Origin: a virus
Strand: one strand, 5' to 3'
Length of the DNA stretch: 47,636 nt
Virus record (IMG/VR): IMGVR_UViG_3300009529_003162
Location: 1-47,636 of that record
Position numbers and translations under genes: made by a program. Each line of letters opens with the position of its first letter. The first letter of the stretch is position 1. Shown here in pieces: positions 5,620 to 37,307 of this stretch. Under the pieces are notes generated by a model. It did not search any database, was not told where the DNA came from, and worked only from the letters and a program-made list of their open reading frames with translations.

Positions 5620-6178
5620 ATACTCAATTATTCTTGCAGACCCGCCTTGGGAGTTTAAGGTTTGGTCGGATAAGGAAAGTGTTAGAATAGCGGTTCATCA
5701 CTATTCGGTTATGTCTTTGGATGAGATTGTAGCTCTGCCCGTTTTTCAGATTGCAGATAAAAACTGCGCTCTCTTCCTTTGGACAGGCCGCGCTGTTTTG
5801 AAAGAGAGTTTCGAGGTTATAAAAGGATGGGGGTTTGAGTTTAAATGTATTGTTTTTACGTGGATAAAAAGAACTCGCACTGGGCGCGATCATATTGGAA
5901 TGGGTTATTATACAAGAGCTAACCCTGAATATGTTTTGTTAGGAGTGAAAGGAAGTATGTCTCCAGTTGATCATAGTGTTAGGGAGCTGACTTATTGCCC
6001 AGTGCGGGAACATTCTCGCAAACCAAAAATAATTCATCAGAAGATTGAGAAATTATTTGGCAATCTTCCTCGCATTGAGCTTTTTGCCAGAGAGAAAGTG
6101 GAAGGTTGGCATACTATTGGAGATGGTATTGATGGTATGGACATTCGTGAAAGTCTTGCAAAACTTATAAGAGGGTAA
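5606..6178 (+). CDS. MT-A70 family N6-adenine methyltransferase
   Basis: About 190 aa from TTG 5606; a GTG at 5585 is the alternative start and both lie inside the previous gene. Residues 12-15 are DPPW, the catalytic motif of MT-A70 enzymes, within the usual YSIILADPPWEF. FLWTG, a central Trp/Phe-rich strand, YTRANPEYVLLGVKG and EHSRKPKIIHQKIEKLFG follow the family. Members methylate adenine N6 in DNA or RNA using SAM. In phages they typically mark phage DNA against host restriction. No cognate restriction enzyme is seen, so self-protection or regulation is the likely role. Confidence 0.88.
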   Translation: MVETKYSIILADPPWEFKVWSDKESVRIAVHHYSVMSLDEIVALPVFQIADKNCALFLWTGRAVLKESFEVIKGWGFEFKCIVFTWIKRTRTGRDHIGMGYYTRANPEYVLLGVKGSMSPVDHSVRELTYCPVREHSRKPKIIHQKIEKLFGNLPRIELFAREKVEGWHTIGDGIDGMDIRESLAKLIRG

Positions 6179-7311: not shown

Positions 7312-8019
7312 ATGGCTAACTATCCTATCGTTTTACTGTCTGGTGGGCAAGACTCTGCTACTTGTCTTATCTGGGCACTGAAACAATTTGACGACGAGCC
7401 AATAGCTATCAGTTTTAAATATGGCCAGCGTCATTTTGAGGCAGAGAATCATGCGGTGGCGAATATTTGTAGGTATGTGAAGATTCGTCGGCACGTGGTA
7501 GATTTAACTGGAGCTTTTAAAGCCTTGACCGATAATTCTCTTATCAATCATACAAAGGAGATTAAGTTTAATAAGAATACGGAATTACCTACTACCTTTG
7601 TTCCCGGTCGAAATATTTTGTTTTTGACAGTGGCGGCGGCATTTGGTTATCAACTGTCAAAGGATCATCGAGAGCCGATTAATTTGGTTATTGGAGTTAA
7701 TCATATTGATTACTCAAATTATCCAGATTGCAGACCTTACGCAATGAGTGCTATGCAAAACACTCTTCATCGAGCATTAGATTGTCCGGTTCAGATTCAT
7801 ACTCCTTTGATCGAGATGAGCAAGGCTGAGATTGTTCAGTATTTTTATGAACTTCGAGGAACCGATCAGCTTATGGCTATGACTCATAGTTGTTATGAAG
7901 GAGTCGTAGGGGGTTGTGGCTCTTGCCCTGCTTGTGAGTTGCGAGCTAAGGGTTTCGCCGAGGCAGGAAGAATTGACCCATCGAGGTTGAAGGAGGGAAC
8001 TGATGAACTCAACCCTTAA
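7312..8019 (+). CDS. queC: 7-cyano-7-deazaguanine synthase
   Basis: 235 aa, typical length. The PP-loop SGGQDS (residues 10-15) binds ATP. FVPGRNILFLTVAAAFGY and GVNHIDYSNYPDCRP are family motifs, and Cys194, Cys202, Cys205 and Cys208 form the structural zinc site near the C-terminus. QueC converts 7-carboxy-7-deazaguanine and ammonia to preQ0 with ATP. In phages preQ0 can feed 7-deazaguanine DNA modification or tRNA queuosine. queE is 4.7 kb downstream; queD, folE and a transglycosylase are not seen here, so precursor supply from the host is inferred. Shine-Dalgarno: agagagtagaa. Confidence 0.95.
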   Translation: MANYPIVLLSGGQDSATCLIWALKQFDDEPIAISFKYGQRHFEAENHAVANICRYVKIRRHVVDLTGAFKALTDNSLINHTKEIKFNKNTELPTTFVPGRNILFLTVAAAFGYQLSKDHREPINLVIGVNHIDYSNYPDCRPYAMSAMQNTLHRALDCPVQIHTPLIEMSKAEIVQYFYELRGTDQLMAMTHSCYEGVVGGCGSCPACELRAKGFAEAGRIDPSRLKEGTDELNP

Positions 8020-12445: not shown

Positions 12446-12698
12446 AGAGTTAGCCAGTAGAAAAATAGAGATTGCCGTACTCGAAGCGCAGCGACCTTTT
12501 ATCGAGGAGAATTGGTCTGAGTATAGATTTATTGGATGGGAGGGAGTAAAAGTTGAAGTTAAGGAATCTTCTCCTAAAATAGTAAAACTTAGATTTGCCG
12601 TGTATAAAGTGTCAGCAATGCGGGCTTTAGAGTTTGTACCAGGTGGTTTCTGGATTAGACTTGATAAGCCTCCAATGTGGAAGAGAGTTGATGAATAA
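12423..12698 (+). CDS. 91-aa hypothetical protein
   Basis: Starts at ATG 12423 within the previous gene. Reads MRLMRPVKELASRKIEIAVLEA and ends GGFWIRLDKPPMWKRVDE. Alternating charged strands (VKVEVKESSPKIVKLRFAVYKVS) predict a beta-rich fold. No family is recognised. Its TAA overlaps the queE start (GATGAATAA), suggesting coupling. Confidence 0.5.
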   Translation: MRLMRPVKELASRKIEIAVLEAQRPFIEENWSEYRFIGWEGVKVEVKESSPKIVKLRFAVYKVSAMRALEFVPGGFWIRLDKPPMWKRVDE

Positions 12699-13599
12699 AA
12701 TGACAGCAAAAGAGGTAACCGATCAGTTTGGAAGAGCTGGCAGTAGAGTTATTATTGATGAGCCGACATCCCTCTCATTTGACTCATCCTGTAATCTTAA
12801 GTTGAGCGAGCATTTTTACTCAATTCAAGGAGAAGGAATACGAGCAGGTAGATTAGCATACTTTATCAGATTTAACCTCTGTAATTTGCACTGTCAATTT
12901 TGCGAAACCTCTTATTCGTCGTGGGATTGCAGGGAACCGGTTATTATTAACATCCTTGATTTAGTAAATGCAATATTTGAAAAACCTGTTAAAGATGTCG
13001 TAATTACAGGAGGAGAGCCTTGCATATGGGAGTATGAATTATGTGAGTTAACTAAGGCAATTAAATCAAAGGCGTCTGAGCGAAATCGATCTGCTTTTAT
13101 TACAATAGAAACAAACGGTACTCAATATGTACCGAACGCATTAGTAGACCTTGTATCTATAAGTCCTAAATTGGCATTTTCTACAAGACCTTTTCTGGAC
13201 GAGAAACCTTCTAATCCGAGTTGGACTCCAGAGCACGCTGACGATCATGAAAGATTACGACATCAGCCTGATCAAGTTGCTCAGTGGTTGACGCATAATT
13301 ACAGATTAGGACACCATAAGTACGCTGCTGATTGGCAGTTAAAGTTTGTAGTGGCGGAGCGGGCTGATATAATAGAGGCAACAGCAGTAATTAATGATTA
13401 CTGTAAAAGTTTAGTTGGATCTCTTGTTCCTGATATAGTGGATCAGATAAGAGATCGAACTTTTCTAATGCCAGAAGCAGCTACTCGTAAACAGTTGGAA
13501 AATAGAGGATTGCGTATAGTTAGTTTATGCAAGGAGTTTGGTTTAAACTATACTGATCGACTTCAAGTTCGCATTTATGATATGCAGAGAGGGGTATAA
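12691..13599 (+). CDS. queE: 7-carboxy-7-deazaguanine synthase (radical SAM)
   Basis: 302 aa from ATG 12691 (ATG 12700 is possible). HFYSIQGEG (residues 41-49) is the QueE N-terminal signature. Cys64, Cys68 and Cys71 (CNLHCQFC) bind the 4Fe-4S cluster. TGGEP and IETNGT follow, then SPKLAFS. QueE rearranges 6-carboxytetrahydropterin to 7-carboxy-7-deazaguanine, the substrate of QueC. At about 300 aa it is longer than compact QueE proteins, with an insertion after the SPK motif (PFLDEKPSNPSWTPEHADDHE). It sits inside the head module, apart from queC, and overlaps the NYN gene by 1 nt (TAATG). Confidence 0.92.
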   Translation: MNKMTAKEVTDQFGRAGSRVIIDEPTSLSFDSSCNLKLSEHFYSIQGEGIRAGRLAYFIRFNLCNLHCQFCETSYSSWDCREPVIINILDLVNAIFEKPVKDVVITGGEPCIWEYELCELTKAIKSKASERNRSAFITIETNGTQYVPNALVDLVSISPKLAFSTRPFLDEKPSNPSWTPEHADDHERLRHQPDQVAQWLTHNYRLGHHKYAADWQLKFVVAERADIIEATAVINDYCKSLVGSLVPDIVDQIRDRTFLMPEAATRKQLENRGLRIVSLCKEFGLNYTDRLQVRIYDMQRGV

Positions 13600-14159
13600 T
13601 GTCACAGCGAGGGGTTGTTTTTGTTAGTGGTAATAACATCTATGCTCAGTTTCGAGAGCATCTTGGCGATGGGCGAGTTGATTTTGATTTGCTCCGACAA
13701 TGGATAGAGGAAGTTTCTGGTATTCCTATTGTTAGAGTGTACTTTTATACACCGGAGTTAACTAAGGCTCATGCTCATCACTCAAGACAGCAAGCCTTTC
13801 TCCACTCTTTGCGGCGAAAGAACTACATAAACATTCGCACTCGTCCTCTGGTAACTACTGATGATGGAAGAGACCTTGTGGAAGGTCTTGATGTTCAAAT
13901 GGCCGCTGACCTTTTTAGAATTGTGGTAAATAGAGGAGTAGATCACGTTTTTGTAGTGTCGGGGGATCAAGACTTGCAACCAGCTTTGAATCTAATCAAG
14001 GATTATGGTGTGACTGTGTGGGTAGTTAGTTTTGCAGATAAATGCGCTACTTGTTTAATTGAAGAAGCCGATAAGTTTCTTGATTTGAGTCAAGAAATAG
14101 CTATGGGATTAGTTGTTAAAGATGAATCTACTAGCGAGCTTACCCAAACTAAAAGTTAA
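13599..14159 (+). CDS. NYN (LabA/DUF88-like) domain protein lacking one catalytic Asp
   Basis: 186 aa with the full NYN layout: beta1 VVFVSGNNIY (residues 6-15), VYFYTP, the EGLDVQMAADL motif, VFVVSGDQDLQPAL, and GVTVWVVSF. NYN proteins are PIN-like metal-dependent ribonucleases. The usual first acid (FIDGNN) is Ser10 here, whereas the Asp residues of EGLD and SGDQD remain. It may be an inactive RNA binder or have relocated a ligand. It starts directly at the queE stop. Phage roles could include RNA processing or countering host defence; unproven. Confidence 0.85.
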   Translation: MSQRGVVFVSGNNIYAQFREHLGDGRVDFDLLRQWIEEVSGIPIVRVYFYTPELTKAHAHHSRQQAFLHSLRRKNYINIRTRPLVTTDDGRDLVEGLDVQMAADLFRIVVNRGVDHVFVVSGDQDLQPALNLIKDYGVTVWVVSFADKCATCLIEEADKFLDLSQEIAMGLVVKDESTSELTQTKS

Positions 14160-25175: not shown

Positions 25176-25553
25176 ATGCTGTTCTACAAGAATAAGAGCG
25201 ATCCGCCCGGTATCTTACGATTTATGTTGGTACCGGGTTTCAAATTTAACACTCTTTGGATTGCAGATAAGCATTCCAAGTGGCATCTTGTACTATCCAC
25301 TTTAAGTGCAGTAGTTTTATCGATCTGGATACCCGATCGTTTGGCATTCTTAACTGTTTGGATTGCTGGATTGTTTTGGGAAATAGGGGACGGATTTAAA
25401 AAAGGTTGGTGGACTTTGGGGGCTCGCCAAGCATCTTATCTAAGTCAAAACTTACTTTACAGTGATGGTTTTTCATGGTCAGACTGGATAGTGTATGATC
25501 TAACTGGTTGTATATTAGGGTGGGGGATTATATTTTTATTGGGAACATTATGA
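25176..25553 (+). CDS. membrane protein, YfiM/VanZ-like outline
   Basis: 125 aa from ATG 25176 (TTG 25173 is in frame). HSKWHLVLSTLSAVVLSIWIP and AFLTVWIAGLFWEIGDGFK are membrane segments with conserved-looking His, Glu and Asp; DWIVYDLTGCILGWGIIFLLG closes with D..G. This H...E..D...D..G pattern occurs in small bacterial membrane proteins such as YfiM- or VanZ-like ones; exact function unknown. Its stop overlaps the first glycosyltransferase (ATGA). Confidence 0.5.
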   Translation: MLFYKNKSDPPGILRFMLVPGFKFNTLWIADKHSKWHLVLSTLSAVVLSIWIPDRLAFLTVWIAGLFWEIGDGFKKGWWTLGARQASYLSQNLLYSDGFSWSDWIVYDLTGCILGWGIIFLLGTL

Positions 25554-26218
25554 GTAGTGTTAAGTTAAGTGTTGTCATACCTACTTTAAACCGAAAAGAC
25601 TTGCTTCAACAGGCTCTCCCTAATTTACTAAAGCAAAGAGATCACTTTGAGCTGCTTCATATTATTGATAATGGTCAGCAAGGTATTGACGTTCCAGACG
25701 ATCCTAAAATTTTACTTCAAGTTCCGGGGCGCAATTTAGGAGTGGCGGCTTCTTGGAATTTGGGGATAAGCGTTGGATTCAAACTCCCCCAGGTAACTCA
25801 CATCCTCGCAATAAATGATGATATAGAATTAGGTGAGAATCAACTGTTGGTTATTAGGCAGTTTATTGAGGATACTCCAGATTATTGGTTCTATGTAGGG
25901 CAGTACTACTGGAGCGTGTGGGTAATTAGTCGGAATGGGGCTAAAACCATGGAGTATCGACCAGCAGAATTTTTTGATTCTCGATTTTACCCCGCCTACA
26001 CGGAAGACAACGATTTTCACCATCGGCTAAACCTAATAAACGCTTCTAAATATCTTGGCAACATTCAGGAATTGCTACCAAAGATAATGCGTAACTCTAT
26101 GACTGCTCAGAAAATGCCTTACATAAATCACGAGCGTAGTGAACGTTTTTATTGTAGAAAGTGGGGTGGAAAACCGGGAAAAGAACAATTCGCAATACCG
26201 TTTGACGGAAAATTATAG
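25550..26218 (+). CDS. GT-A (family 2-like) glycosyltransferase 1
   Basis: 222 aa from ATG 25550 (ATGA overlap). LSVVIPTLNRKDLLQQAL is the GT2 opening strand and helix; GRNLGVAASWNLGI, then the metal-binding region HILAINDDIELGE supplies the DxD-like IND-D, and YTEDNDFHHRL a second acidic motif. It is a compact GT-A enzyme lacking membrane segments. It would transfer a sugar from a nucleotide donor to an unknown acceptor (phage virion protein or host glycan). First gene of the sugar island. Confidence 0.82.
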   Translation: MSSVKLSVVIPTLNRKDLLQQALPNLLKQRDHFELLHIIDNGQQGIDVPDDPKILLQVPGRNLGVAASWNLGISVGFKLPQVTHILAINDDIELGENQLLVIRQFIEDTPDYWFYVGQYYWSVWVISRNGAKTMEYRPAEFFDSRFYPAYTEDNDFHHRLNLINASKYLGNIQELLPKIMRNSMTAQKMPYINHERSERFYCRKWGGKPGKEQFAIPFDGKL

Positions 26219-26227
26219 GAGAGAAAA

Positions 26228-26380
26228 ATGAACATTGCTGAAAAAACCCGTCCAAGAAAGGATGGTAGTGGGGGAGGTAAAAAGGGAGGTCTTGATAAAA
26301 ATACTGGGCCTTGTTCTAAAGGCGGGCCTGGTGGAGGAAAAGGTGCTGGTAGGGGAGGCGGAAGTGGGAGAAAAAAATAA
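26228..26380 (+). CDS. 50-aa Gly/Lys-rich basic peptide
   Basis: Starts after ataggagagaaaa at ATG 26228. It reads MNIAEKTRPRKDGSGGG, then repeats of Gly with Lys (GGKKGGLDKN, PGGGKGAGRGGG) ending GRKK. Low complexity and highly basic, with one Cys. It abuts the next gene. Similar Gly-rich small proteins appear in phages but their function is unknown. Confidence 0.5.
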   Translation: MNIAEKTRPRKDGSGGGKKGGLDKNTGPCSKGGPGGGKGAGRGGGSGRKK

Positions 26381-27142
26381 TTGGAGCAAGAGCCAGAAAA
26401 AATACAAATAATTTTAACATCATTCAATAGAACCTGGCTGCTTCGACAAGCAATCGAAAGCGTACTTAATCAGACTTGTCGAAACTTTCATCTCTATATA
26501 ATGGATGATTTTTCAAACAATGCTAAAACCCATGAAATTCTTGACGAATATGCAAAACATTCTAAAGTGGTAGTGTATAAAGGTATTATTCCAAAAGGAA
26601 TTGACCGTTATAGTAGAACTGGCTATAGCATTGGAATTAACCACGCGCTTGCTATGAGCAGTAGTCCACTTATTACATATTTAACTTGCGATGATATATA
26701 CTATCCAGATCGACTTGAGCGAATGATAAAACATCTTGACGAAAATCCTGAGTATTACATCGTGTATGGTAAGCAGCTACTTGTTTCGATTAATGGCGTA
26801 ATGAAATTCAGACAAAGGGGAATAAGGGTTTCGGGGCAGGTTGTTGAACGAGCTGCCTGCCATGTCGACCATAATTCAGTAATGCATCGTCGAATTTGCA
26901 TTGATACTGTTTGTAGAGAAGATGGGCTTTTGCCTTGGTTCGAGGAAGTGGATTATATTTGTGGAGCAGATGCCAAGTTATGGGAAAGATTTAATAGACA
27001 TTGGCCGTTTCATTTAGTTCCGGGCGGCCCTACAGATGAGCACCGATTTCACGAGGGATCATTGCAGGATATTGCAACTCGCGTTGCCAGAGCTGCTGAA
27101 AAGGGTATTTCAATGCGTTTGGATGGGAGTATAGTGGAATGA
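26381..27142 (+). CDS. GT-A (family 2-like) glycosyltransferase 2
   Basis: 253 aa from TTG 26381, immediately after the previous stop. IQIILTSFNRTWLLRQAIESVLNQT is a textbook GT2 start, then YIMDDFSNN and LTCDDIYYPDRLERM (DxD-like). HVDHNSVMHRR and EEVDYICGADAKLWERF follow the GT2 pattern with an acidic catalytic region. No membrane helix. Overlaps the next gene by 4 nt. Confidence 0.88.
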   Translation: MEQEPEKIQIILTSFNRTWLLRQAIESVLNQTCRNFHLYIMDDFSNNAKTHEILDEYAKHSKVVVYKGIIPKGIDRYSRTGYSIGINHALAMSSSPLITYLTCDDIYYPDRLERMIKHLDENPEYYIVYGKQLLVSINGVMKFRQRGIRVSGQVVERAACHVDHNSVMHRRICIDTVCREDGLLPWFEEVDYICGADAKLWERFNRHWPFHLVPGGPTDEHRFHEGSLQDIATRVARAAEKGISMRLDGSIVE

Positions 27143-27759
27143 AGTTTTCGGTAATAACCGCTGCCAGCAGGTCTTTGGAGGTAATGAAAAACCTTAGAGC
27201 TTGCTTTGAGAAACAGACCTTCAAGGATTTCGAGCATATAATAGTTTATGATGGCCCTCCTCCGGAAGATATAAAGAAGTACTTAGTTGGCGAGCCGGTA
27301 GTATTTGACTTCTTACCTGCGAAGGATGGTCGTTATGGAACAGCGCCGAGGAATCGAGGTACTGAATTGGCTTCTGGCGAGTTCATAATTTTTGCTGACG
27401 ATGATGATTATTATAGTGAATATTATTTGCAGGCGTTTGCTGATCTTGAGCCTGACAACAATTCTCTATGTGTAGTGAGGATGAATGATTATGGGAGAAT
27501 CCTACCGGGAGTGCCTATCAATAAATTCCCACAAAACTGTGATGTTGGAACCCCAATGTGCTGTTTTCCAAGAATTTGGTTTGATAATATAAACATTCGA
27601 TGGGAGTATCATGGTGGCTATTCTCACGATTTTGAATTTGTAAAAAAATGCACAGATACTTATAAACCTATAATAAAATATAGTGATAAGGTAGTGGTAG
27701 CTGCCAGAAATTTGGGGCGCCTTGCAGAATATGATCTATTAGATTCACTTCCCTTTTGA
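27139..27759 (+). CDS. GT-A (family 2-like) glycosyltransferase 3
   Basis: 206 aa, ATGA overlap with the previous gene. KFSVITAASRSLEVMKNL opens like GT2; FEHIIVYDGPPP, TAPRNRGTELASGEFIIFADDDDYY (GT2 NRG and DDDD metal-binding site), and HDFEFVKKC complete the fold. It seems to be a short, soluble enzyme, part of the same operon. Confidence 0.85.
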   Translation: MKFSVITAASRSLEVMKNLRACFEKQTFKDFEHIIVYDGPPPEDIKKYLVGEPVVFDFLPAKDGRYGTAPRNRGTELASGEFIIFADDDDYYSEYYLQAFADLEPDNNSLCVVRMNDYGRILPGVPINKFPQNCDVGTPMCCFPRIWFDNINIRWEYHGGYSHDFEFVKKCTDTYKPIIKYSDKVVVAARNLGRLAEYDLLDSLPF

Positions 27760-27769
27760 GAGGTAGAGT

Positions 27770-28369
27770 ATGAGAAAAAGACAGAAAATGTCGTTAGGGA
27801 CTCGTCGTAAAATGTCTGAGGCTCGCAAAGGAAAAAGGTTTTCTGAAGAAACTCGTCGTAAAACGTCTGAGGCTAAGATCGGTGTAAATCATCCTAATTG
27901 GGGTAAAATTATTACAAAAGAAATACGTTGTAAAATATCAAAAGCTCTGAGAGGTAAGAACAATCCTAATTATGGTAAACATAAAACAGAAGAAACTGAA
28001 CGTAAAATGAGGCTATCTGCTATAAAAAATCTTAAATCTCGGTTTAATCAAATAAGGATAAATTATAACGCAGAAGCGTGTAAGGTATTTAATACCATTA
28101 ATGATTTCTTCGGATGGAGTGGAAAGCACGCTGAGAATGGAGGCGAAGTTCATCTTAAGGAACTTGGATACTGGCTCGACTTCTATGATAGGGAGAGGAA
28201 TATTGTCATTGAGTATTATGAAAAAAGTCACTACAGATCATTATCTGTACTAACAAAAACCTTACTCAGAGAACAGGAAATTATAAAACACCTTGGCTGT
28301 CAGTTCTTTAGAATAGATGCTCGTGATCCATTGAAGTTAAAAATGACTATTATAAAGCGAGCTGCATAG
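27770..28369 (+). CDS. NUMOD3 homing endonuclease-like protein
   Basis: 199 aa after agaggtagagt. Residues 1-85 have three NUMOD3-type repeats (RRKMSEARKGKRFSEETR, CKISKALRGKNNPNYGK), helical DNA-binding motifs of mobile endonucleases. The C-terminal half has a Vsr/PD-(D/E)XK-like layout: YWLDFYDRERNIVIEYYEKSHY, then REQEIIKHLGCQFFRI. Free-standing homing endonucleases move between phage genomes by cutting an empty site. It sits between GT genes without disturbing frames. The catalytic set is inferred, not verified. Confidence 0.72.
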   Translation: MRKRQKMSLGTRRKMSEARKGKRFSEETRRKTSEAKIGVNHPNWGKIITKEIRCKISKALRGKNNPNYGKHKTEETERKMRLSAIKNLKSRFNQIRINYNAEACKVFNTINDFFGWSGKHAENGGEVHLKELGYWLDFYDRERNIVIEYYEKSHYRSLSVLTKTLLREQEIIKHLGCQFFRIDARDPLKLKMTIIKRAA

Positions 28370-29097
28370 TGACGAATAAAAATTGTACAATCTCTGTATT
28401 AGTTCCTACACGAAAGCGCCAAGCAGATGTTACCCAATTGGTGGCAACTGGTCTCGAAATGACAACACGGGAGAATAGCCTTGAATTTTGTTTTTGCTTT
28501 GATGATGATGACAATATTTCGGGGGAATTTATTCCTAAATTAAAAAGGAAATATCCCGAGAATATAAAATACATAGAAGTGGAACGTAATAGATTTAAGT
28601 TAAGTGAATTAACCAACCAATGCTATAGTGTTTCGACAGGCGAATTGCTGTTGATGTTGGGGGATGACTTTGCTTTCAGAACGCGACGATGGAATGAACT
28701 TGTAATAGCCGAATTCCTAAAGTACCCTGACAATATTCTGCTTGCGTACGGATATGATGGGCACCAACCAGCGGGTAAGTTGGCGACACATGGGGTTGTT
28801 CATCGCGATTGGGTGAATGTATTAGGTTATTGTACTCCTCCCTATTTTTCTTGCGATTATGCTGACACGTGGTTGTATGACGTTGCAACAGCTATAAATA
28901 GATGCATTTGTCTTGATATATATTTTGAACATTTACATCCTATGCAGGGAAAGCATGAATGTGATGATACACATCGGGAGAGATTGGAGAGAGGAAAAAG
29001 AGATAATAATCAGGCGCTTTATTCCAGTTCGCAAATGAAGAGCTTGCGAGAAGTCGATGTGGCAAAATTGCAAAGTTTTATAGAGAGTAAGAAATGA
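28369..29097 (+). CDS. GT-A (family 2-like) glycosyltransferase 4
   Basis: 242 aa from GTG 28369 (overlap with previous stop). ISVLVPTRKRQADVTQLV opens the domain; FCFDDDDNIS and LLLMLGDDFAFRTRRW give acidic metal-site motifs, KHECDDTHRERL is the C-terminal DxD-like segment. It differs from the neighbours in the middle (YCTPPYFSCDYADTWLYDVA), suggesting another acceptor. Overlaps the methyltransferase by 4 nt. Confidence 0.78.
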   Translation: MTNKNCTISVLVPTRKRQADVTQLVATGLEMTTRENSLEFCFCFDDDDNISGEFIPKLKRKYPENIKYIEVERNRFKLSELTNQCYSVSTGELLLMLGDDFAFRTRRWNELVIAEFLKYPDNILLAYGYDGHQPAGKLATHGVVHRDWVNVLGYCTPPYFSCDYADTWLYDVATAINRCICLDIYFEHLHPMQGKHECDDTHRERLERGKRDNNQALYSSSQMKSLREVDVAKLQSFIESKK

Positions 29098-29744
29098 TTA
29101 ACAATATTGCTTTGGAAATAATAAAAAGATTTAACATAAATACTCTTGTGGAGACGGGTATTTGGAGGCAAAATACGCTGCTCCTTCTGCAAGATTGGAA
29201 CAGCTTTGAACTGAACTGCCCTGTCAAATACATAGGGGTAGATACAGATGAAAAAGCCGTAAAAGATGTTGAAGAATTGCACGGTAAAGACAATTCTTTG
29301 ATAAGAGTAGTGTGGGGCGATTCCAGAGATTTCTTGAAGGCATTGATTGAGTCTGGAGAATTGGAAAAGTCAAACGTATTGTTTTACTTGGATGCCCATT
29401 GGAATTATGACTGGCCGCTTTTGGGGGAATTAGAAATACTGATGGGCTTTCCCAAGTCTATTATAGCAATTGACGATTTTTATACGCCTGCTCATCCAAA
29501 ATACGGCTTTGACAGCTACCATGGAAACGATTGTGGAGCGGATTATATTAAACCCATTATTATTCAAAGAACTAACATAATCTATTACGCCGCTCTCTGT
29601 AACAAAGATCAAAGGGGAATGTGCATAATTTTTATTGGTTTTAGCGAAAAAATGGTGGATGATACTTTATTTAATCTAAAACCCCTTAACATTGATGATA
29701 TATATTTTACATCTGTTCTTGAAATAATTAAAGATAAATTATAA
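29094..29744 (+). CDS. SAM-dependent methyltransferase-like protein
   Basis: 216 aa. NTLVETGIWRQNT is a motif I variant (VETG), YIGVDTDEKAVKDVEEL motif II with acidic Asp for SAM ribose, WGDSRDFLKAL and NVLFYLDAHWNYDWPLLGEL motif IV (DAHW), IIAIDDFYTPAHP. Resembles Methyltransf_24-like O-methyltransferases that modify sugars in polysaccharide clusters. ATGA overlap with the GT before. It would methylate a sugar hydroxyl in the glycan made by the island. Confidence 0.75.
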   Translation: MINNIALEIIKRFNINTLVETGIWRQNTLLLLQDWNSFELNCPVKYIGVDTDEKAVKDVEELHGKDNSLIRVVWGDSRDFLKALIESGELEKSNVLFYLDAHWNYDWPLLGELEILMGFPKSIIAIDDFYTPAHPKYGFDSYHGNDCGADYIKPIIIQRTNIIYYAALCNKDQRGMCIIFIGFSEKMVDDTLFNLKPLNIDDIYFTSVLEIIKDKL

Positions 29745-30599
29745 ATGGATAAACTAAGATTATTGGAGGCGCTTCCTGGGCACTTTGGTTTTTCTTCCCA
29801 CTTACTCCATGCGCTGTTGGCTATATATTTGTCTGAAAAGGATGGAATTCCATTGGTTATAGATTTTTCAAAGAATCATTCTTTCATTCAAAAGGATGGA
29901 GAAAATGTTTGGGATAACTACTTTGAGCAGCCTTGGGGTATCTCTTTATCAGAAGCACGCGAATTGGCATCGCAGAATAAAGTAGAATTATTGGTAGTGC
30001 GGGGGTTTTGTAATAGTTCTGAGTTTAATGCTGTTTGGGCGTGTCCGAACTCCATTAATTATTACGTAATAGATTCCAAGATTAGGGATAGAGGCGTCAA
30101 TGCGGCAAAAAGAATAAGACCAAGAGGAGAGACTAAAGAACTGATAGATAGTTTCTTTGAAAAAAATATGTTGGGGCACAAAGTAATAGGCGTTCATCGT
30201 AGGGGTAGTGTTTCTCACATGCATGGGGAACCTATACTACCTACGAAAGAGTTCTTTGATATGATTGATCATCATTTATGTTCTGAACAAGGCTTCGATA
30301 GAATTTTCTTAGCAACAAATGAGATTGAACAAGTTGATAAGTTCAAAAGTAAGTATGAAGATAAGTTGCTTTTGCAAGATAATGTTTTGAGATTGCCCCA
30401 CAATGTATATCTTAATACCAACGAATATTCCGAAACCAATAAAGATTTGTATAGGTTAGGCAGAGAAGTTGCAGTAGATATATTTTTACTATCGAAAACA
30501 GATTTACTTATAAGAACTTTTTCTGGTTTATCTGCGATGGTTATCTTCTTAAATGGTGATTTGGTATACATTCAACTTAACCAAAGGTTTTATCGGTGA
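29745..30599 (+). CDS. fucosyltransferase-like glycosyltransferase
   Basis: 284 aa. GHFGFSSHLLHALLAIYLSEKDGIPLVIDFS matches the N-terminal half of fucosyltransferase folds; VIGVHRRGSVSHMHGE is the family HxRxG-type donor (GDP-sugar) loop; FDRIFLATNEIEQVDKFKSKY and EVAVDIFLLSKTDLLIRTFSGLS follow the NodZ/GT11-like layout (second motif with xTxSxxS). No membrane segment. It would transfer fucose or a related deoxysugar from a GDP donor. Exact family uncertain. Confidence 0.68.
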   Translation: MDKLRLLEALPGHFGFSSHLLHALLAIYLSEKDGIPLVIDFSKNHSFIQKDGENVWDNYFEQPWGISLSEARELASQNKVELLVVRGFCNSSEFNAVWACPNSINYYVIDSKIRDRGVNAAKRIRPRGETKELIDSFFEKNMLGHKVIGVHRRGSVSHMHGEPILPTKEFFDMIDHHLCSEQGFDRIFLATNEIEQVDKFKSKYEDKLLLQDNVLRLPHNVYLNTNEYSETNKDLYRLGREVAVDIFLLSKTDLLIRTFSGLSAMVIFLNGDLVYIQLNQRFYR

Positions 30600-31135
30600 A
30601 CATTAAACAATCAACCATTTTTGATCTTGTAAAGATAATAGAACCAGATGTTTTTCGTGATCATCGGGGGGAATATATAGAAACTTTCAACGAAGACCAG
30701 TATAAAGAAATGTGTCCAAAGAAGTTTGTAGTGGATGACATTTCAATTTCCAAGAAAAGTGTTTTAAGAGGACTTCATGGTGATTATAAAACGTGGAAAC
30801 TTATCCAATGTTTATATGGATCAATTTATTTTGTTGTAGTGGATTGGAGACCAGAATCACCTACTTATAAAATGTGGGAAGCTTTTAAGGTGAATGATAA
30901 AAACCATATTCAAATTCTCGTTCCACCGGGATTTGTAAATGGGCATTTGTGCTTATCAGATATGTGTATTTTTCACTACAAGCAGACAGAATATTACGTA
31001 GTGTCTGGATCAGCGAACCAAATTTCTGTGAAGTGGGATGACCCGGAATTGAAAATTGATTGGTTGATAAATAGTTCTTATCTTTCACATCTTCCTTTTC
31101 CGATTTTATCGAAGAGAGATTTACATGCTTTGTAG
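30596..31135 (+). CDS. RmlC-like cupin (3,5-epimerase family)
   Basis: 179 aa, GTG start in a GTGA overlap. PDVFRDHRGEYIETFNEDQY and SVLRGLHGDYKTWKLIQCLYGSIYFVVVDWR are the RmlC signature; RGLH includes the catalytic His. VPPGFVNGHLCLSD replaces the usual PxGxAHGF. Canonical RmlC epimerises dTDP-4-keto-6-deoxyglucose at C3 and C5. The changed residues near the active site (RGLHGD rather than RGLHYQ) suggest a different substrate or a 3-epimerase. No rmlA, rmlB or rmlD is visible. Confidence 0.8.
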   Translation: MNIKQSTIFDLVKIIEPDVFRDHRGEYIETFNEDQYKEMCPKKFVVDDISISKKSVLRGLHGDYKTWKLIQCLYGSIYFVVVDWRPESPTYKMWEAFKVNDKNHIQILVPPGFVNGHLCLSDMCIFHYKQTEYYVVSGSANQISVKWDDPELKIDWLINSSYLSHLPFPILSKRDLHAL

Positions 31136-32675
31136 ACGGTTAGATTGCTTGTTCGTAAACCCCGGCGCTGCTAATATTATCTATCAGGATTTGAGTAAAA
31201 GATACAGTGCTATCGAACCCCCAACTTGGTCACTTCTTCTTGCACAAGCTTGTAGAAGTAAGGGATTTGGTACCGCAATATTGGATCTCAACGCAGAACG
31301 TATTACTGAAGAACAAGCAATTCAGAGGGTAAAAGAATGTGATCCCAGATTAGTTTGTTTTACTGTGTACGGTCAAAACCCAAATTCCGGAACAACTGAA
31401 ATGACGGGTGCTACTTCACTGGCTAAGAAATTAAGACAGCGCTATCCTGAGTATAAAATATGTTTTGTGGGATCACATACGAGCGCCCTCCCTCTTGATG
31501 TTCTTTCGTATCCTTTTGTGGATTTTGTTCTATTGAATGAGGGGGTTTATGCTTTACAGCATCTTCTTTCGAGTAACTTAAAAGATTGTTTGGGTAATAT
31601 TAATGGTATTGGCTACAAAGAGGATGGGGGTATTTTGAAATTAAACGATCCTGAAAAACCGGTACCAACCAATAGAATGGATGTGGACTTACCGGGATAT
31701 GCCTGGGATCTTCTTCCATATGAAGAGAAACCTTTAGACTTGTATAGATCACATTTTTGGCATGCTGATTGGCAGGACAAATATAGAACACCCTTTGCTG
31801 CAATATATACGTCGTTGGGATGCCCCTTTAAATGTGATTTTTGTATGATTAATATATTAAACCGCGTTGACAATTCTCCCAATGTAACAGCTGCTAATAG
31901 TGCATATGTAAGATTTTGGTCACCAGAATTTATTATCAAGGAATTTGACAAACTTGTGAAGTTGGGGGTTTATACCATGCGGATTAGTGATGAGTTGTTT
32001 TTCTTTCGCCGTAATCATTTTGAATCATTGTTAAAACTATTAAAAGAGCGTGACTATGCTAAGGACTTGCGAATGTGGGCTTATGCCAGAATAGACATAG
32101 CTAACCATTACAAGGACTTCAGTCTGTTTGAAAAAGCGGGGATCAAAGCACTTGGTTTTGGTATAGAGAGTAGTTCTAATGAGGTTAGAGAAAATGTATC
32201 AAAAGGAGCGTTTGATGTATCATCCATAAAACAGGCAATTAGTAAGATGCGGGATTTTGGAATGATTCCGGGAGTAAATTACATTTTTGGTTTGCCTAAA
32301 GATACCATTGAAACTATGCAAGAGACTTTGGATTTGAGTTTGGAGCTTTGCACAGAAAATTGGAATGCGTATGCGTGCTATGCTCTACCAGGCAGTCCTT
32401 TATATATGCGAGCCCTGAAGTTAGGATGGAAGTTACCAACAAAATATTCCGAGTATTCGTTTTTTTCATATGATAGTTTACCTTTACCGACCAACAGCTT
32501 GCCTGCTGCCGATGTTCTTGAATTTCGTGATAATGCTTTCCATACGTATTATAAGCATAAGCCGTTCATAAATTTAATAGAAAAGAGATTTGGGCAGGAT
32601 GCCAAACGAAATATTATAGAGATGGAAAAAGTAAGATTGAAACGAAAAATAGTAGAGGAGAAATATCAAAAATGA
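31125..32675 (+). CDS. B12-binding-domain radical SAM enzyme
   Basis: 516 aa, overlapping the cupin gene. Residues 10-180 have a cobalamin-binding-like domain (CLFVNPGAAN, KICFVGSHTSALPLDVL) used to hold B12 or as a Rossmann shell. CPFKCDFC near residue 235 is the CxxxCxxC cluster-binding motif, followed by RISDELFFFRRNHF, RIDIA, GIKALGFGIESSS and GVNYIFGLPKDT. This family carries out methylations or rearrangements of unactivated carbons. In this island it may C-methylate or otherwise modify a sugar or lipid carrier. The reaction cannot be read from sequence. Confidence 0.85.
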   Translation: MLCRRLDCLFVNPGAANIIYQDLSKRYSAIEPPTWSLLLAQACRSKGFGTAILDLNAERITEEQAIQRVKECDPRLVCFTVYGQNPNSGTTEMTGATSLAKKLRQRYPEYKICFVGSHTSALPLDVLSYPFVDFVLLNEGVYALQHLLSSNLKDCLGNINGIGYKEDGGILKLNDPEKPVPTNRMDVDLPGYAWDLLPYEEKPLDLYRSHFWHADWQDKYRTPFAAIYTSLGCPFKCDFCMINILNRVDNSPNVTAANSAYVRFWSPEFIIKEFDKLVKLGVYTMRISDELFFFRRNHFESLLKLLKERDYAKDLRMWAYARIDIANHYKDFSLFEKAGIKALGFGIESSSNEVRENVSKGAFDVSSIKQAISKMRDFGMIPGVNYIFGLPKDTIETMQETLDLSLELCTENWNAYACYALPGSPLYMRALKLGWKLPTKYSEYSFFSYDSLPLPTNSLPAADVLEFRDNAFHTYYKHKPFINLIEKRFGQDAKRNIIEMEKVRLKRKIVEEKYQK

Positions 32676-33430
32676 ACTCTTGGTTAGAAGATAAGACGAT
32701 ACTTATTACAGGAGCTACCAGTGGTATTGGTCTTGAACTTGCGAGAAGATTGGAATGCGTTAAGTTAAAGAGGCTATTGCTGCTGTCGTGGGATAGTTGC
32801 GGTTATTTTGGACAGATTGCAGAAGAACTTAAAGTGAATACCCCACAAATTATGATGGTAAGTGTTAATAACACTAAGGGAATGATAAAAGCTTTTAGAG
32901 AAGTAAAGAAAATAAATGTTTTAGTTCATTCAATAGGCAGTTGTTGCAAATATGATCTGTTTAAGAATCTCTTGCACGATGATATAGAAAATATTTTGAC
33001 AACAAATTTAACCGGATCATTGCATTTGTTGAAAGAAGTTATGCCCAAAATAGTTGATGGATCAAGAAAAATTAATTCGCTGAAAAAGGGACATGTTGTT
33101 TTATTGTCATCTCGATCAGGAGAACGTGCATTGCCAAGACTTTGCCCATACACAGCATCAAAAGGTGGTATTGAAAAAGTGGCCCAAACTCTGCAAATGG
33201 AATATGCTAAAGATGGAATCTCGTTCACGTTGATAAATCCCGGATCAATTAAGACTAATTTTACAAGGAGTTGGAATGGCCGAGCAAAAGCAAATCACAA
33301 TGAAGAATCAATGACAATAAAAGAAGCCGTTGAGCCTATATTGTTTGTTTTGCACGCTGAAACATTTTTCAATAAAATATCGTATGAATCTGGTTTACAA
33401 TGGAGAAATGAACCGGGGGTGCTTTTATAA
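32672..33430 (+). CDS. short-chain dehydrogenase/reductase
   Basis: 252 aa. TGATSGIG at residues 13-20 is the NAD(P) glycine motif; NVLVHSIGSC (variant of NNAG), YTASKGG (Tyr and Lys of the catalytic site), and INPGSIKTNF complete the SDR signature. It would reduce or oxidise a keto or hydroxyl group on a sugar or acyl intermediate. It lies next to the E1-like pair and shares a TAATG junction with the alpha subunit, so it may act on the same product. Confidence 0.9.
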   Translation: MNSWLEDKTILITGATSGIGLELARRLECVKLKRLLLLSWDSCGYFGQIAEELKVNTPQIMMVSVNNTKGMIKAFREVKKINVLVHSIGSCCKYDLFKNLLHDDIENILTTNLTGSLHLLKEVMPKIVDGSRKINSLKKGHVVLLSSRSGERALPRLCPYTASKGGIEKVAQTLQMEYAKDGISFTLINPGSIKTNFTRSWNGRAKANHNEESMTIKEAVEPILFVLHAETFFNKISYESGLQWRNEPGVLL

Positions 33431-34257
33431 TGGATAATGAAACGAGACTGAAGATATTCCGCAAAGCCTCTTTATGCCGACATTTTGAGAATAAAGTGTT
33501 TAATTTAATAAAGCAAGGAGTGTTTAAAATACCCATATACTTATCTGCGGGCGAAGAATTTATACCATCTACAATTTCAACATTATTTGAGAACAAGCAA
33601 CCTTTAATATTTGCACAGCACAGGGCACACTCAACTTATATAGCATTTGGCGGTAACTTGGAAGAATTAAGAGACGAATTGTTAGGAAAAGAATCTGGGT
33701 GTGCCAAAGGAATGGGGGGTTCTGCTTCCATACATTCTCCAAAGATTAATATGTACGGTCACGATGGTATGTTGGGTAGCCAGGTCCCAATTGCCGTTGG
33801 AGCGTGTCATGCGACAGGAAAATTCACTATTTGTATTCTTGGGGATGGCGCTGCTGAAGAAGATTATGTATTAGCTGCAATGGGTTATGCTATTACAAAA
33901 TCCTTACCTATATTGTTTATAATTGAGGATAACAATTTATGCGTTCTTACAGAGAAGAAGATTAGAAGGTCTTGGAGTATGGTTAATGTAGGAAAAGGGC
34001 TCGATATAGATTCTTTTGAGTGCGATGATTCCCCTGTTTCCATAGAAGGAGTTGTGAATAAAATAACACGTTACCCCGTACTTATAAATGTAAATACGTG
34101 CAGGTTATTTTGGCATGCAGGCGCAGGTATAGATGATATGCCTGATCGAGTAGACAGATATGAAATAGAGAAGAGCTTATTAAGCAAAGCCAACTACCCT
34201 ATGATAACACAAATAGATAAATCTTGCAAAGAGAAGATTAATAGGTTGTGGGGATGA
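33430..34257 (+). CDS. thiamine-diphosphate-dependent E1 alpha-like subunit
   Basis: 275 aa, short relative to pyruvate dehydrogenase E1 alpha (about 320-400). AQHRAHSTYIAFGG, GCAKGMGGSASIH, GSQVPIAVGACHATG and the TPP motif GDG (138-140)...NN (168-169) are all present. The fold of the E1 alpha/TK family decarboxylates 2-keto acids or transfers ketol units. Alone it lacks the partner, supplied by the next gene. In a sugar cluster this pair may make a branched or extended sugar or an acyl-like group; E2/E3 partners are not seen. Confidence 0.85.
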   Translation: MDNETRLKIFRKASLCRHFENKVFNLIKQGVFKIPIYLSAGEEFIPSTISTLFENKQPLIFAQHRAHSTYIAFGGNLEELRDELLGKESGCAKGMGGSASIHSPKINMYGHDGMLGSQVPIAVGACHATGKFTICILGDGAAEEDYVLAAMGYAITKSLPILFIIEDNNLCVLTEKKIRRSWSMVNVGKGLDIDSFECDDSPVSIEGVVNKITRYPVLINVNTCRLFWHAGAGIDDMPDRVDRYEIEKSLLSKANYPMITQIDKSCKEKINRLWG

Positions 34258-35153
34258 ATCTTAGAAATACCATTAAAGAGATAGTTAGAAGCCATCTCAA
34301 TAATGGGGGAGTAGCAATGGGGCAATGCCTTACCGCTGTTGGTTGGGTAGGTGGTACCTTGCCTAAATTATATGAGAAAGATGGTATGATTGAGATGCCA
34401 ACTTGCGATGTTGCAGGTGGCGGTATCGCTGTTGGATTTGCGCTTACGGGGAAGAGGCCAATTTACATCGTTAGATACCAGGGCTTTCAGTGGTATAATG
34501 CTATTACAATACTAAACTATGCTGCTAAAGCTAAGGAAATGTGGGGGACGCCTTGTCCAATATTTGTACGTTCAATAGGTATGGAAGGTGGGATGGGACC
34601 TGTAGCTGGCAATTGCCATCATGGGATATATATGCGAATACCCGGGGTTAAAATAATTGCGCCTATAACACCTAACGAATACAAGGAGACTTGGCAACGT
34701 TTTATGGATGATGATGATCCTTACTATGTTAGTGAACACAGAAAGAGCTTTGATATTGATGACGATTTACCAAGACCTATGTTTTTTGTGTATTCAGATA
34801 TAACTTTAGTATCTATTTCCATAACAAGGTTGGCGGCAAGGGAAGCCCAAAAATTACTATATGAATATGGTATCAAAGCAAACGTCATAGATTTATTATT
34901 ATTAAAACCACTTGGATTAACGGCGGACAATTATAAGATGATAAAACGATCCAGATTTGGTGGATTGGTGCTGGATACGGATTATGCCAACGGGGTTGCC
35001 AAACCTATTGCAAATGATATATCAACAGCGACAAAGAAAATAATTCACGTATTGGCTCTTAAAGAAAAGGCAGCTGGTTTCAGCCCACGTCTGGATAACT
35101 TACCACCCAATAAAGATGAAATTGTTAACAAAGTGAGGAGAATAGTGAAGTGA
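34254..35153 (+). CDS. E1 beta-like (transketolase-type) subunit
   Basis: 299 aa from ATG 34254 (ATGA overlap). CDVAGGGIAVGFALTGKRPIYIVRYQGFQWYN resembles the E1 beta Pyr domain (GxAxGxAxxGxRPI), VRSIGMEGGMGPVAGNCHHGIYMRIPGVKIIAPITPNEYKE is the loop before the C-terminal transketolase domain (VIDLLLLKPLG, VLDTDY). With the preceding subunit it would form an alpha2beta2 E1-like enzyme. An acidic Glu is expected in the Pyr domain; E (IEMPTCD) may fill it, which I infer. Confidence 0.83.
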   Translation: MNLRNTIKEIVRSHLNNGGVAMGQCLTAVGWVGGTLPKLYEKDGMIEMPTCDVAGGGIAVGFALTGKRPIYIVRYQGFQWYNAITILNYAAKAKEMWGTPCPIFVRSIGMEGGMGPVAGNCHHGIYMRIPGVKIIAPITPNEYKETWQRFMDDDDPYYVSEHRKSFDIDDDLPRPMFFVYSDITLVSISITRLAAREAQKLLYEYGIKANVIDLLLLKPLGLTADNYKMIKRSRFGGLVLDTDYANGVAKPIANDISTATKKIIHVLALKEKAAGFSPRLDNLPPNKDEIVNKVRRIVK

Positions 35154-36181
35154 ATATATTGATAACCGGGGGAGCTGGTTATATTGGTAACGTATTAGTT
35201 GCTAAGCTGTTTCAAGCGAAGAATAGTCAGACAAGTTTATCCTTTTATGATAAGTTGGTTTTTGACCATTCAGACGTCGATTATAATAAATTGTCACATT
35301 ACGTAAATTTTAAAAAGCTTACAGTATTTGACAACCTTATGTATAGACAAGTCTGTTTGACTGATTTCTGTTATCGGGGTGATTTTGAGTTTGTGTTTGG
35401 TGATGTTCGAGATAAAACCTTATTATTGAAATATATTAAAGAGGCAGATGTTATCATTCCCTTAGCTGCTATTGTTGGTTTTCCTGCATGTGAGAGAGAT
35501 AAGAAGTTGAGTAAACAGATTAATTTTGAACAGGTAAAATTCATATTGGGTAATACCAGTAAAAACCAAAGGATTATTTTTCCGAATACTAATAGTGGTT
35601 ACGGCGTTGGTGATAGAACAACACTTTGTACAGAAGAGACACCATTAAGCCCCATTAGTGTTTATGGTAGAACTAAGTGCGCTGCTGAGAAACTATTGTT
35701 AGATTCAGGTAGGGCAATTATCTTAAGACTGGCCACCGTTTTTGGAGTTTCCCCTCGCATGCGCCTTGACTTAATAGTTAACAACTTTGTTTATAAAGCT
35801 TTAAATGATGAATATATTGTTTTATTTGAAAAAAACTTCAGGCGTAATTTTATACACATACAAGATGTAGCATTAACCTTTATATCTGCGATAAATAATT
35901 ATGATCGTATGGTAGGAAATGCTTTTAACGTAGGGCTTTCCGATACGAATTTAAGCAAGTTAGAATTGTGTGAAAAAATTAAGGAGTATGTCTCCACGTT
36001 TGTGATTAAATGTGATGATTTTAGGGAAGATCCCGATAAAAGAGATTATATTGTTAGTAACAAAAAATTGGAAAAAATAGGTTGGACTCCTTATTATACG
36101 TTAGACCTGGGCATTCGGGAGCTACTAAAAGCCTATCGAATCATAAATCATCATCAAAATAAGTATTTTACGAATTTATAG
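35150..36181 (+). CDS. NAD-dependent nucleotide-sugar epimerase/dehydratase
   Basis: 343 aa, GTG start (GTGA overlap). GGAGYIG (residues 7-13) binds NAD; VIIPLAAIVGFPAC, NTNSGYG, and SVYGRTKCAAE (Tyr/Lys) complete the extended SDR active site. RRNFIHIQDVA and AFNVGLSD follow. It resembles UDP- or GDP-sugar 4-epimerases, dehydratases or 4,6-type enzymes. The substrate is unknown. Likely supplies the sugar donor used by the GT enzymes in the same operon. Confidence 0.87.
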   Translation: MNILITGGAGYIGNVLVAKLFQAKNSQTSLSFYDKLVFDHSDVDYNKLSHYVNFKKLTVFDNLMYRQVCLTDFCYRGDFEFVFGDVRDKTLLLKYIKEADVIIPLAAIVGFPACERDKKLSKQINFEQVKFILGNTSKNQRIIFPNTNSGYGVGDRTTLCTEETPLSPISVYGRTKCAAEKLLLDSGRAIILRLATVFGVSPRMRLDLIVNNFVYKALNDEYIVLFEKNFRRNFIHIQDVALTFISAINNYDRMVGNAFNVGLSDTNLSKLELCEKIKEYVSTFVIKCDDFREDPDKRDYIVSNKKLEKIGWTPYYTLDLGIRELLKAYRIINHHQNKYFTNL

Positions 36182-36183
36182 TC

Positions 36184-36600
36184 ATGAGAAAATATTTACC
36201 GATTTTTTCAGACTTAGTAGATAAGCTATCAATTTGTCAATTGAAACAAATCTATATTCCGGAAAACGCAGATTCCTATAAACAAGAAATTGAAGATATT
36301 TTGCATGATATTGACTTAATTATTGAAGAGAAAGATATTCAATTCACTGCTAAATTGTTGTATTATTCACAAATAATAATGCTCGCTAATAAGACAATCT
36401 GGGAGAGTGAGAGCAAGGCAAGAGCTGGTGGATCAGAACAGGATAAACTGTTAAAATTCACACACTCCATAAATGGTGTCAGAAATACCGCAAAAAATCT
36501 TATAAGTCAGTTGCTGGATGAAAGAATGGATTTAAAAGTGGACTGCCTCGCCACTGATCTACCAGAAGAATTTGGAAACTGGGGGATATTTGGATTATGA
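36184..36600 (+). CDS. conserved-type small protein of sugar clusters
   Basis: 138 aa, all helical: FSDLVDKLSICQLKQIYIPENADSYKQEIEDILHDID, KLLYYSQIIMLANKTIWESESKARAGG and INGVRNTAKNLISQL...KVDCLA. The NxxIWxxES and NGVRNxAKN patterns resemble an uncharacterised family seen next to sugar biosynthesis and GT genes, including in phages. Reading from memory only. Non-enzymatic adaptor or cluster-specific stabiliser is possible. Overlaps the next gene by 4 nt (ATGA). Confidence 0.55.
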   Translation: MRKYLPIFSDLVDKLSICQLKQIYIPENADSYKQEIEDILHDIDLIIEEKDIQFTAKLLYYSQIIMLANKTIWESESKARAGGSEQDKLLKFTHSINGVRNTAKNLISQLLDERMDLKVDCLATDLPEEFGNWGIFGL

Positions 36601-37307
36601 ATGTCTTGATAATTCTCTTATATTATAACCGGCCAAACCTTGTACACAATGCTTTAGGCTCAATTCGAGAACTAAACCATGGAAATATTGTTGAGGTAGT
36701 GGCAATAGACGATGGAAGTGATATTCCTCTCCGGTCTATTGTTGACATGCACTACTATGACATTATTCACAAGTTCAAATTTTACAGGATTGATGATAGT
36801 AAAGATCAAAAAGAGAAGCAAGGTGGGTCTCGCATTGGTCAGTTTATCAATTTAGCTATAAAGGAGTCAGCGGCCGATATTAGTCTTATTCTTTGTGATG
36901 ATGATGCTTTAATTCCAAGCGTTGTTAAAAGAACAGTCAGGTGGTTTGAAAATAATCTATCTGAGCAGTATGGTTATTATCACCTTATTGACTTTAATCC
37001 ACTAAACGCTTTGCCAGATAAGAATGTTTCAAATAACGGATTGACTAACTACACAAAGTCTATAAATCCCAGCGGTTTTCTCGAAAAGTCGCAGGTTGTT
37101 TGGAGATTACATGCAAGTAAAGGCTCTGACATTTGGTTTCCTTATCCAATGACTTACCACTACGAAGAGTTCTTCTATCGAGAGATGTTTGAGAAGTTTG
37201 GAGAGTGTAAATTTATGGGATTTACTGGCCAGTATAAGGCCAGATTTAATGGTCAGTATTTATTAAGAGGATGTCACTATGATGGCGCAGAAGGAAGAGT
37301 TGGCTAA
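36597..37307 (+). CDS. glycosyltransferase-like protein 5 (divergent GT-A)
   Basis: 236 aa. NVLIILLYYNRPNLVHNALGSI is a GT2-like opening, EVVAIDDGSD the first acidic motif, SRIGQFINLAIKES the N/G region and LILCDDDALIP the metal site. The C-terminal SDIWFPYPMTYHYEEFFYREMF resembles GT2 ED-like region. It closes the island; its 3' end overlaps the endolysin by 26 nt, linking the island to lysis genes. Confidence 0.72.
   Translation: MNVLIILLYYNRPNLVHNALGSIRELNHGNIVEVVAIDDGSDIPLRSIVDMHYYDIIHKFKFYRIDDSKDQKEKQGGSRIGQFINLAIKESAADISLILCDDDALIPSVVKRTVRWFENNLSEQYGYYHLIDFNPLNALPDKNVSNNGLTNYTKSINPSGFLEKSQVVWRLHASKGSDIWFPYPMTYHYEEFFYREMFEKFGECKFMGFTGQYKARFNGQYLLRGCHYDGAEGRVG

Follow-up and report, generated by a model that had tools for sequence, protein, structure and literature searches.

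A phage sugar operon with an E1-like thiamine diphosphate enzyme pair and a possible route to a C-branched heptose

Two-subunit enzymes resembling the E1 component of pyruvate dehydrogenase (PDH) have been proposed to put acetyl branches on keto-sugars, as is the case for AviB1/AviB2, Pau11/Pau12 and EvdU5/EvdS3 (PMC4753412, PMC4425429, PMC10338323), and KbDH-alpha/beta joins pyruvate to ketones in vitro (PMC12247030). Such alpha/beta pairs are known or proposed in the avilamycin, paulomycin, everninomicin and kibdelomycin systems (PMC4753412, PMC4425429, PMC10338323, PMC12247030). For Gram-negative surface sugars this step falls to YerE, the branching enzyme of yersiniose, a single flavoprotein of the acetolactate synthase type (PMC4753412, PMC10338323) that uses a 3,6-dideoxy-4-keto sugar (PMC12247030). 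In Campylobacter jejuni, Cj1427 acts as the C4 dehydrogenase of GDP-D-glycero-D-manno-heptose (PMC10680097). Here we analyse an island of fifteen open reading frames (ORFs), all on the plus strand at positions 25550-37307 of the 47,636-base virus record IMGVR_UViG_3300009529_003162 of IMG/VR (the whole record is called the window below), in which an E1-like pair of this kind lies among sugar genes of a tailed phage.

Like the alphaKADH2 enzymes (AviB type), the island has a two-subunit PDH-E1-like thiamine diphosphate (ThDP) enzyme beside keto-sugar genes; the former, however, sit in antibiotic gene clusters, whereas the island pair belongs to a phage. With the O-antigen sugar yersiniose the proposed product would share a C2 branch on a 4-keto surface sugar, but YerE is one enzyme and not an E1 pair. 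The GDP-heptose modification pathway of C. jejuni, which includes C3 and C3/C5 epimerases besides Cj1427, provides the best solved relatives of the island dehydrogenase and epimerase, and its pyridoxal phosphate (PLP) C3-dehydratase parallels a ColD-like gene of related phages (PMC10440746). In contrast to the island, a phage-borne set, no ThDP pair or B12-radical S-adenosylmethionine (SAM) step is described for that pathway in the parts of PMC10680097 consulted, and 'thiamin' is not mentioned in the paper. The central genes are as follows.

30596-31135, plus strand: RmlC-like C3 or C3/C5 epimerase (PF00908, 150 bits; 8DCL, E 1.3e-34)
31125-32675, plus strand: B12-binding radical SAM enzyme with a CxxxCxxC motif (PF02310 and PF04055; 39 viral relatives)
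32672-33430, plus strand: classical short-chain dehydrogenase/reductase (SDR), candidate for reduction of a branch or ring ketone (PF00106, 102 bits)
33430-34257, plus strand: E1-alpha-like subunit of a ThDP enzyme (PF00676; family A1/F2, 85 loci)
34248-35153, plus strand: E1-beta-like subunit, activating Glu replaced by Asp54 (PF02779; E1-beta fold, Z 31)
35150-36181, plus strand: Cj1427-like NAD-dependent nucleotide-sugar C4 dehydrogenase (6VO6, E 3.4e-100, 339 bits)
36184-36600, plus strand: 138-aa helical-bundle protein, widespread in phage sugar cassettes (at least 530 confirmed viral relatives)

The E1 pair shares fold, subunit layout and ThDP motif with PDH and branched-chain E1, its nearest relatives by sequence and fold, and differs from them in its low identity (about 20%), its setting in a phage sugar operon, the lack of a detectable E2 or lipoyl gene and the exchange of Glu for Asp. 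From end to end, the predicted E1-beta structure matches the fold of PDH E1-beta (Z 31, rmsd 2.7, 20% identity). The ThDP-binding motif is present in all 85 members of the E1-alpha family, and the invariant active-site histidines of E1-alpha are retained. Searches for E2 catalytic and lipoyl domains (PF00198, PF00364) gave no match in 20 viral records of up to 186 kb, which may be incomplete and whose hosts could supply an E2, while control genomes were positive. Scores against NCBIfam models stayed far from the cut-offs (TIGR03182, 105 bits vs. 394; NF006667, 71 vs. 321). On these family scores, a separate clade, the lack of E2 and lipoyl genes in the 20 records and the Asp for Glu, we reject an ordinary PDH or acetoin dehydrogenase, the assignment to host metabolism that the preliminary description of this DNA had named as fatal to its interpretation.

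Alignment with PDH E1-beta revealed Asp at the thiamine-activating Glu position in 86 of 86 members of the E1-beta family. The aligned Glu is the ThDP-activating residue of PDH, Glu59 of human E1-beta. The only two sequences with Glu at this position turned out to be ordinary E1-beta paralogues, and a distant cellular relative (L206) also has Asp. In the phylogenetic tree the family forms one clade on a long branch, far from ordinary E1-beta. The window protein itself occupies a long branch without a firm position, so that no nearest relative can be assigned to it. In cellular genomes carrying the family, members reach 545-605 bits, compared with 71-77 bits for ordinary E1-beta. Such genomes are few: 3 of 369 in one class and 1 of 380 in one phylum, seed genomes counted. 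The E1-beta profile recovered 79 viral loci. E1 matches in named phage records were ordinary, AcoA/AcoB-like proteins with 21-29% identity. The earlier statement that E1 pairs without E2/E3 are unusual in phages thus agrees with the named records, from which they are nearly absent, and not with IMG/VR contigs, where they are common.

Two further genes of the operon point, independently and with unequal strength, to GDP-4-keto-heptose as the likely substrate, since the best matches of both are C4 or C3 enzymes of GDP-heptose. For the gene at 35150-36181, described earlier as an NAD epimerase, the Pfam epimerase/dehydratase family was recovered, but 6VO6 is the sole solved structure below 1e-20, and the viral family profile gives 463 bits to 6VO6 and 130 to the next entry. 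The PDB title of 6VO6 reads only 'putative sugar-nucleotide epimerase/dehydratase'; we take this structure to be the Campylobacter GDP-heptose C4-dehydrogenase Cj1427, and the phage protein is accordingly listed as a C4 dehydrogenase. The top solved match of the RmlC-like protein is 8DCL, a GDP-D-glycero-4-keto-D-lyxo-heptose 3-epimerase, by a small margin, other Campylobacter heptose epimerases and dTDP-rhamnose epimerases being nearly as good. It falls under the NCBIfam RmlC equivalog cut-off (142.9 vs. 155.75 bits).

Conservation of the set was examined across viral loci. The genes for the RmlC-like, radical SAM, E1-alpha, E1-beta, dehydrogenase and 138-aa proteins occur together in the window and in seven other viral loci, with varying gene order. 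A few contigs are shared between the match lists of the radical SAM, E1-beta and 138-aa proteins. Against the concern that the set might not be conserved as a unit, six genes therefore recur together in changed order, with the glycosyltransferases, the methyltransferase-like and fucosyltransferase-like genes and the SDR outside the unit. Among 39 loci chosen by the radical SAM gene alone, the dehydrogenase is found in 34, RmlC in 32, a DegT-type gene in 29 and, in 27, a "mini" ThDP pair (about 200 and 178 aa) that keeps the usual activating Glu. Loci with both radical SAM and dehydrogenase carry a ThDP pair, either the E1 or the "mini" pair, in 73 of 84 cases; both pairs meet in only 3 loci. 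A ColD-like 3-dehydratase is present in 72 of the 79 viral loci selected by E1-beta. These DegT-type genes have ColD as their best solved match (417 bits) and, like ColD, show His-His where aminotransferases have the PLP lysine (first His in 107 of 107, second in 87 of 107, never Lys). The 138-aa protein is predicted to form four long helices (AlphaFold2 pLDDT 86); neither its sequence nor, at a significant level, its fold has a match in the PDB. Neither it nor the radical SAM protein has a relative in 50,697 named phage records.

Several features of these loci are recorded here as observations. The "mini" pair occurs in more than 70 viral loci (e.g., L043:6882-8020), adjoining radical SAM, dehydrogenase or small-protein genes, and the C-terminal domain seems to be missing from its second subunit. 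Nearly all E1 pairs except that of the window have DJ-1-like, cupin and HAD-like genes beside them (L048:7477-8705 and equivalents); the only other E1 pair without DJ-1 is in a truncated locus, L121. A 301-aa family found in 31 loci (L113:10885-11787) has HxD-type motifs recalling 2-oxoglutarate oxygenases and no Pfam match.

Taken together, we favour, with a little less than even confidence, the reading that genes at 30596-36600 convert GDP-heptose to a heavily modified, probably C-branched sugar, which glycosyltransferases would attach to a virion or host-surface glycan. The sequences themselves show the enzyme families, their intact catalytic motifs, the lack of E2 genes in the searched records, the Asp for Glu and the co-conservation; the substrate, the reactions of the E1 pair and the radical SAM enzyme, the order of steps and the target are what we infer. 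First, the Cj1427-like dehydrogenase would oxidise C4 of GDP-D-glycero-D-manno-heptose to a ketone, and the RmlC-like epimerase would then invert C3, perhaps also C5. As a third step, E1-alpha/E1-beta may decarboxylate pyruvate on ThDP and, because there is no lipoyl E2 partner, put the C2 unit on the sugar ketone to give a tertiary alcohol with an acetyl branch. By analogy with what is proposed for AviB1/AviB2, attachment of a C2 branch to a ketone would be the most likely reaction of the pair. The SDR, in which TGxxxGIG and YxxxK motifs were read by eye, could reduce the branch or ring ketone, the B12-radical SAM enzyme would add a C-methyl group, and the GT2 and FUT8-like enzymes would finally transfer the product. 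That other viral loci combine a ColD-like 3-dehydratase with the E1 pair parallels the 3,6-dideoxy-4-keto substrate of YerE and supports branching. The earlier interpretation, a novel branched, acylated or chain-extended sugar, is thus supported in part, and the analogy with AviB1/AviB2, Pau11/Pau12 and KbDH-alpha/beta makes branching the best reading.

A number of points weigh against this pathway. The nucleotide and the sugar are deduced from homologues, and the likeness to AviB and KbDH from the published descriptions of those enzymes. Heptose-synthesis genes are absent from the window, as are the ColD-like 3-dehydratase (six frames searched) and the DJ-1 and cupin genes of nearly all other E1-pair loci, although the record may be a fragment, so that failing to find DJ-1, cupin and DegT genes does not prove that the phage lacks them. 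In addition, with Asp instead of the activating Glu the chemistry could be altered or lost, and the radical SAM enzyme could deoxygenate instead of methylating.

The last point underlies the alternative that survives best, though we regard it as unlikely: the radical SAM protein would dehydrate the sugar in partnership with the SDR encoded next to it, in the manner of AprD4 and AprD3, to give a deoxy sugar and no C-methyl group. Among solved structures, AprD4 indeed gives the best match to the radical SAM core (6FD2, 5e-11), the SDR gene lies directly 3' of the radical SAM gene, and the window itself has no ColD-like 3-dehydratase. Yet AprD4 has CxxxCxxxC in the alignment, whereas CxxxCxxC is found in 82 of 82 members of the phage family, the AprD4 model of NCBIfam gives 53 where 500 is required (other NCBIfam matches are also far below their cut-offs), and most relatives already have a 3-dehydratase. 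Orthology to AprD4 was rejected on the motif and the score. The island protein shares the radical SAM core and the N-terminal B12-type domain with AprD4 and the B12-radical SAM C-methyltransferases but forms a separate family, and it probably C-methylates. Genes for an MTA/SAH-nucleosidase-like protein accompany the radical SAM gene in 24 of 25 loci and APRT-like genes do so in 16 of 17, which fits recycling of SAM products.

Somewhat less probable is that the E1 pair acts as a transketolase-like ketol or aldehyde transferase which changes chain length, giving a higher-carbon or truncated sugar instead of a branch. The E1-beta fold is common to transketolase and DXS (Z 24-28), and genes for a heptose-type kinase and nucleotidyltransferase share cassettes with relatives of the pair. 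On the other hand, transketolase is not the nearest relative of the pair by sequence or fold, and a ketone-making enzyme among the E1 neighbours suits branching better.

We consider it improbable that the pair supplies an acyl or aldehyde unit for a purpose unrelated to the nucleotide sugar, as a donor in N- or O-acylation or by cleaving a C-C bond of an alpha-hydroxyketone (e.g., acetoin). Acetoin:dichlorophenolindophenol oxidoreductases do belong to the same superfamily (PMC12247030), and most relatives adjoin the DJ-1-like, cupin and HAD-like genes. However, the 20 records gave no E2 or lipoyl gene, the ordinary AcoA/AcoB-like genes of phage records are distant, and in the window, without DJ-1 and cupin genes, the E1 pair stays inside the sugar operon. 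Finally, it is very improbable that the genes are inactive cargo or come from host DNA wrongly assembled into a viral contig: viromes are known to suffer from cellular contamination (PMC3877843), and the GC content of the island (36.5-38.7%) is 3-6 points under that of its flanks (41.6-42.6%), but contamination was rejected because phage genes lie on both sides of intact, overlapping ORFs and the families recur in more than 150 IMG/VR contigs, some of them between T4-type replication, recombination and sigma genes (UvsY/UvsW and gp46/gp47/late-sigma-like).

Sugar genes in phages are already known. Viral auxiliary genes listed to date include ascC/ddhC/rfbH and hldE types (PMC10653327), and virion glycosylation has a parallel in giant viruses, which build rare sugars of a bacterial type for their fibrils (PMC10117803). 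A literature search in open-licence papers found no report of the present module in phages. Its chemistry has precedent; what is new is the separate, virus-enriched E1-like family, the altered active site and the recurrent phage sugar cassette. This cassette is invisible in present phage isolate collections, while hundreds of uncultivated phages, and almost no named ones, carry relatives of its parts. As a more far-reaching and rather doubtful proposal, a virus-enriched ThDP carboligase, with Asp for a nearly universal Glu, and a B12-radical SAM enzyme may together make an undescribed C-branched, C-methylated, heptose-derived sugar with which hundreds of uncultivated phages coat their particles or change the glycans of their hosts. 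The need for ThDP and probably cobalamin, both demanding cofactors, together with SAM-recycling genes in some relatives, amounts to a large investment in an exotic sugar, which implies a strong advantage, e.g., a virion-hiding glycan or an altered host surface. Ideas on ThDP activation could also be tested with such a family of two-subunit carboligases, whose active site is unusual.

The remaining genes of the island are mainly glycosyltransferases.

25550-26218, plus strand: GT2-like glycosyltransferase (PF00535, 25.1 bits; ATG at 25550)
26381-27142, plus strand: GT2 glycosyltransferase (PF00535, 77.7 bits; PHROG GtrB-like)
27139-27759, plus strand: GT2-like glycosyltransferase (PF00535, 32.4 bits)
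27770-28369, plus strand: NUMOD3 homing-endonuclease-like gene within the glycosyltransferase array (PF07460, 77.3 bits; phrog_314 homing endonuclease; TIGR01453 below cut-off)
28369-29097, plus strand: GT2-like glycosyltransferase (PF00535, 27.2 bits; relatives in 15 loci)
29094-29744, plus strand: putative methyltransferase (motif level only, no family match; weak tblastn relatives in two radical SAM loci)
29745-30599, plus strand: FUT8/GT23-like transferase, possibly using a GDP-sugar donor (PF19745, 25.2 bits; cut-off 27.6)
36597-37307, plus strand: GT2-like glycosyltransferase, overlapping the endolysin gene by 29 nt (PF00535, 26.2 bits)

The coordinates and common strand of the preliminary description were found exactly, and its Pfam calls were upheld for the five GT2 proteins, RmlC, the B12-binding and radical SAM domains, SDR, E1-alpha, E1-beta and the NAD epimerase family. 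As a whole its observations were confirmed in part, with amendments for the homing-endonuclease-like ORF, a 162-nt gap, the methyltransferase and the epimerase. The single polycistron is plausible, but the 1-4 nt overlaps claimed for it occur at about half of the junctions: eight overlap by 1 or 4 nt, two others by 10 and 11 nt, and gaps of 0, 2, 10 and 162 nt separate the rest. The methyltransferase call has motifs read by eye behind it, the ORF giving no match in Pfam, PHROG or NCBIfam. For the fucosyltransferase-like call a FUT8 match was found, just under the Pfam cut-off, and the protein has no relative in the viral contigs searched. The ORF at 27770-28369 is, by its domain matches, NUMOD3 homing-endonuclease-like and not a sugar gene; it is possibly a mobile element of the operon.

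The island is flanked upstream by portal- and capsid/protease-like genes and downstream by genes for the endolysin, a DUF3383 protein and a neck protein. A search with the capsid-like protein gave no relatives among viral contigs and phage records, so that the phage could be assigned neither an empty site nor a host. The 162-nt gap, between the first two glycosyltransferase genes, contains a 50-codon Gly/Lys-rich ORF (26228-26379). Elsewhere in the window, genes for QueC (PF06508, 199 bits) and a QueE-like radical SAM protein, at 7312-8019 and 12634-13599, suggest that this phage modifies DNA through a preQ0/7-deazaguanine pathway, and an NYN-domain protein and a DNA methyltransferase-like gene are found at 13599-14159 and 5585-6178.

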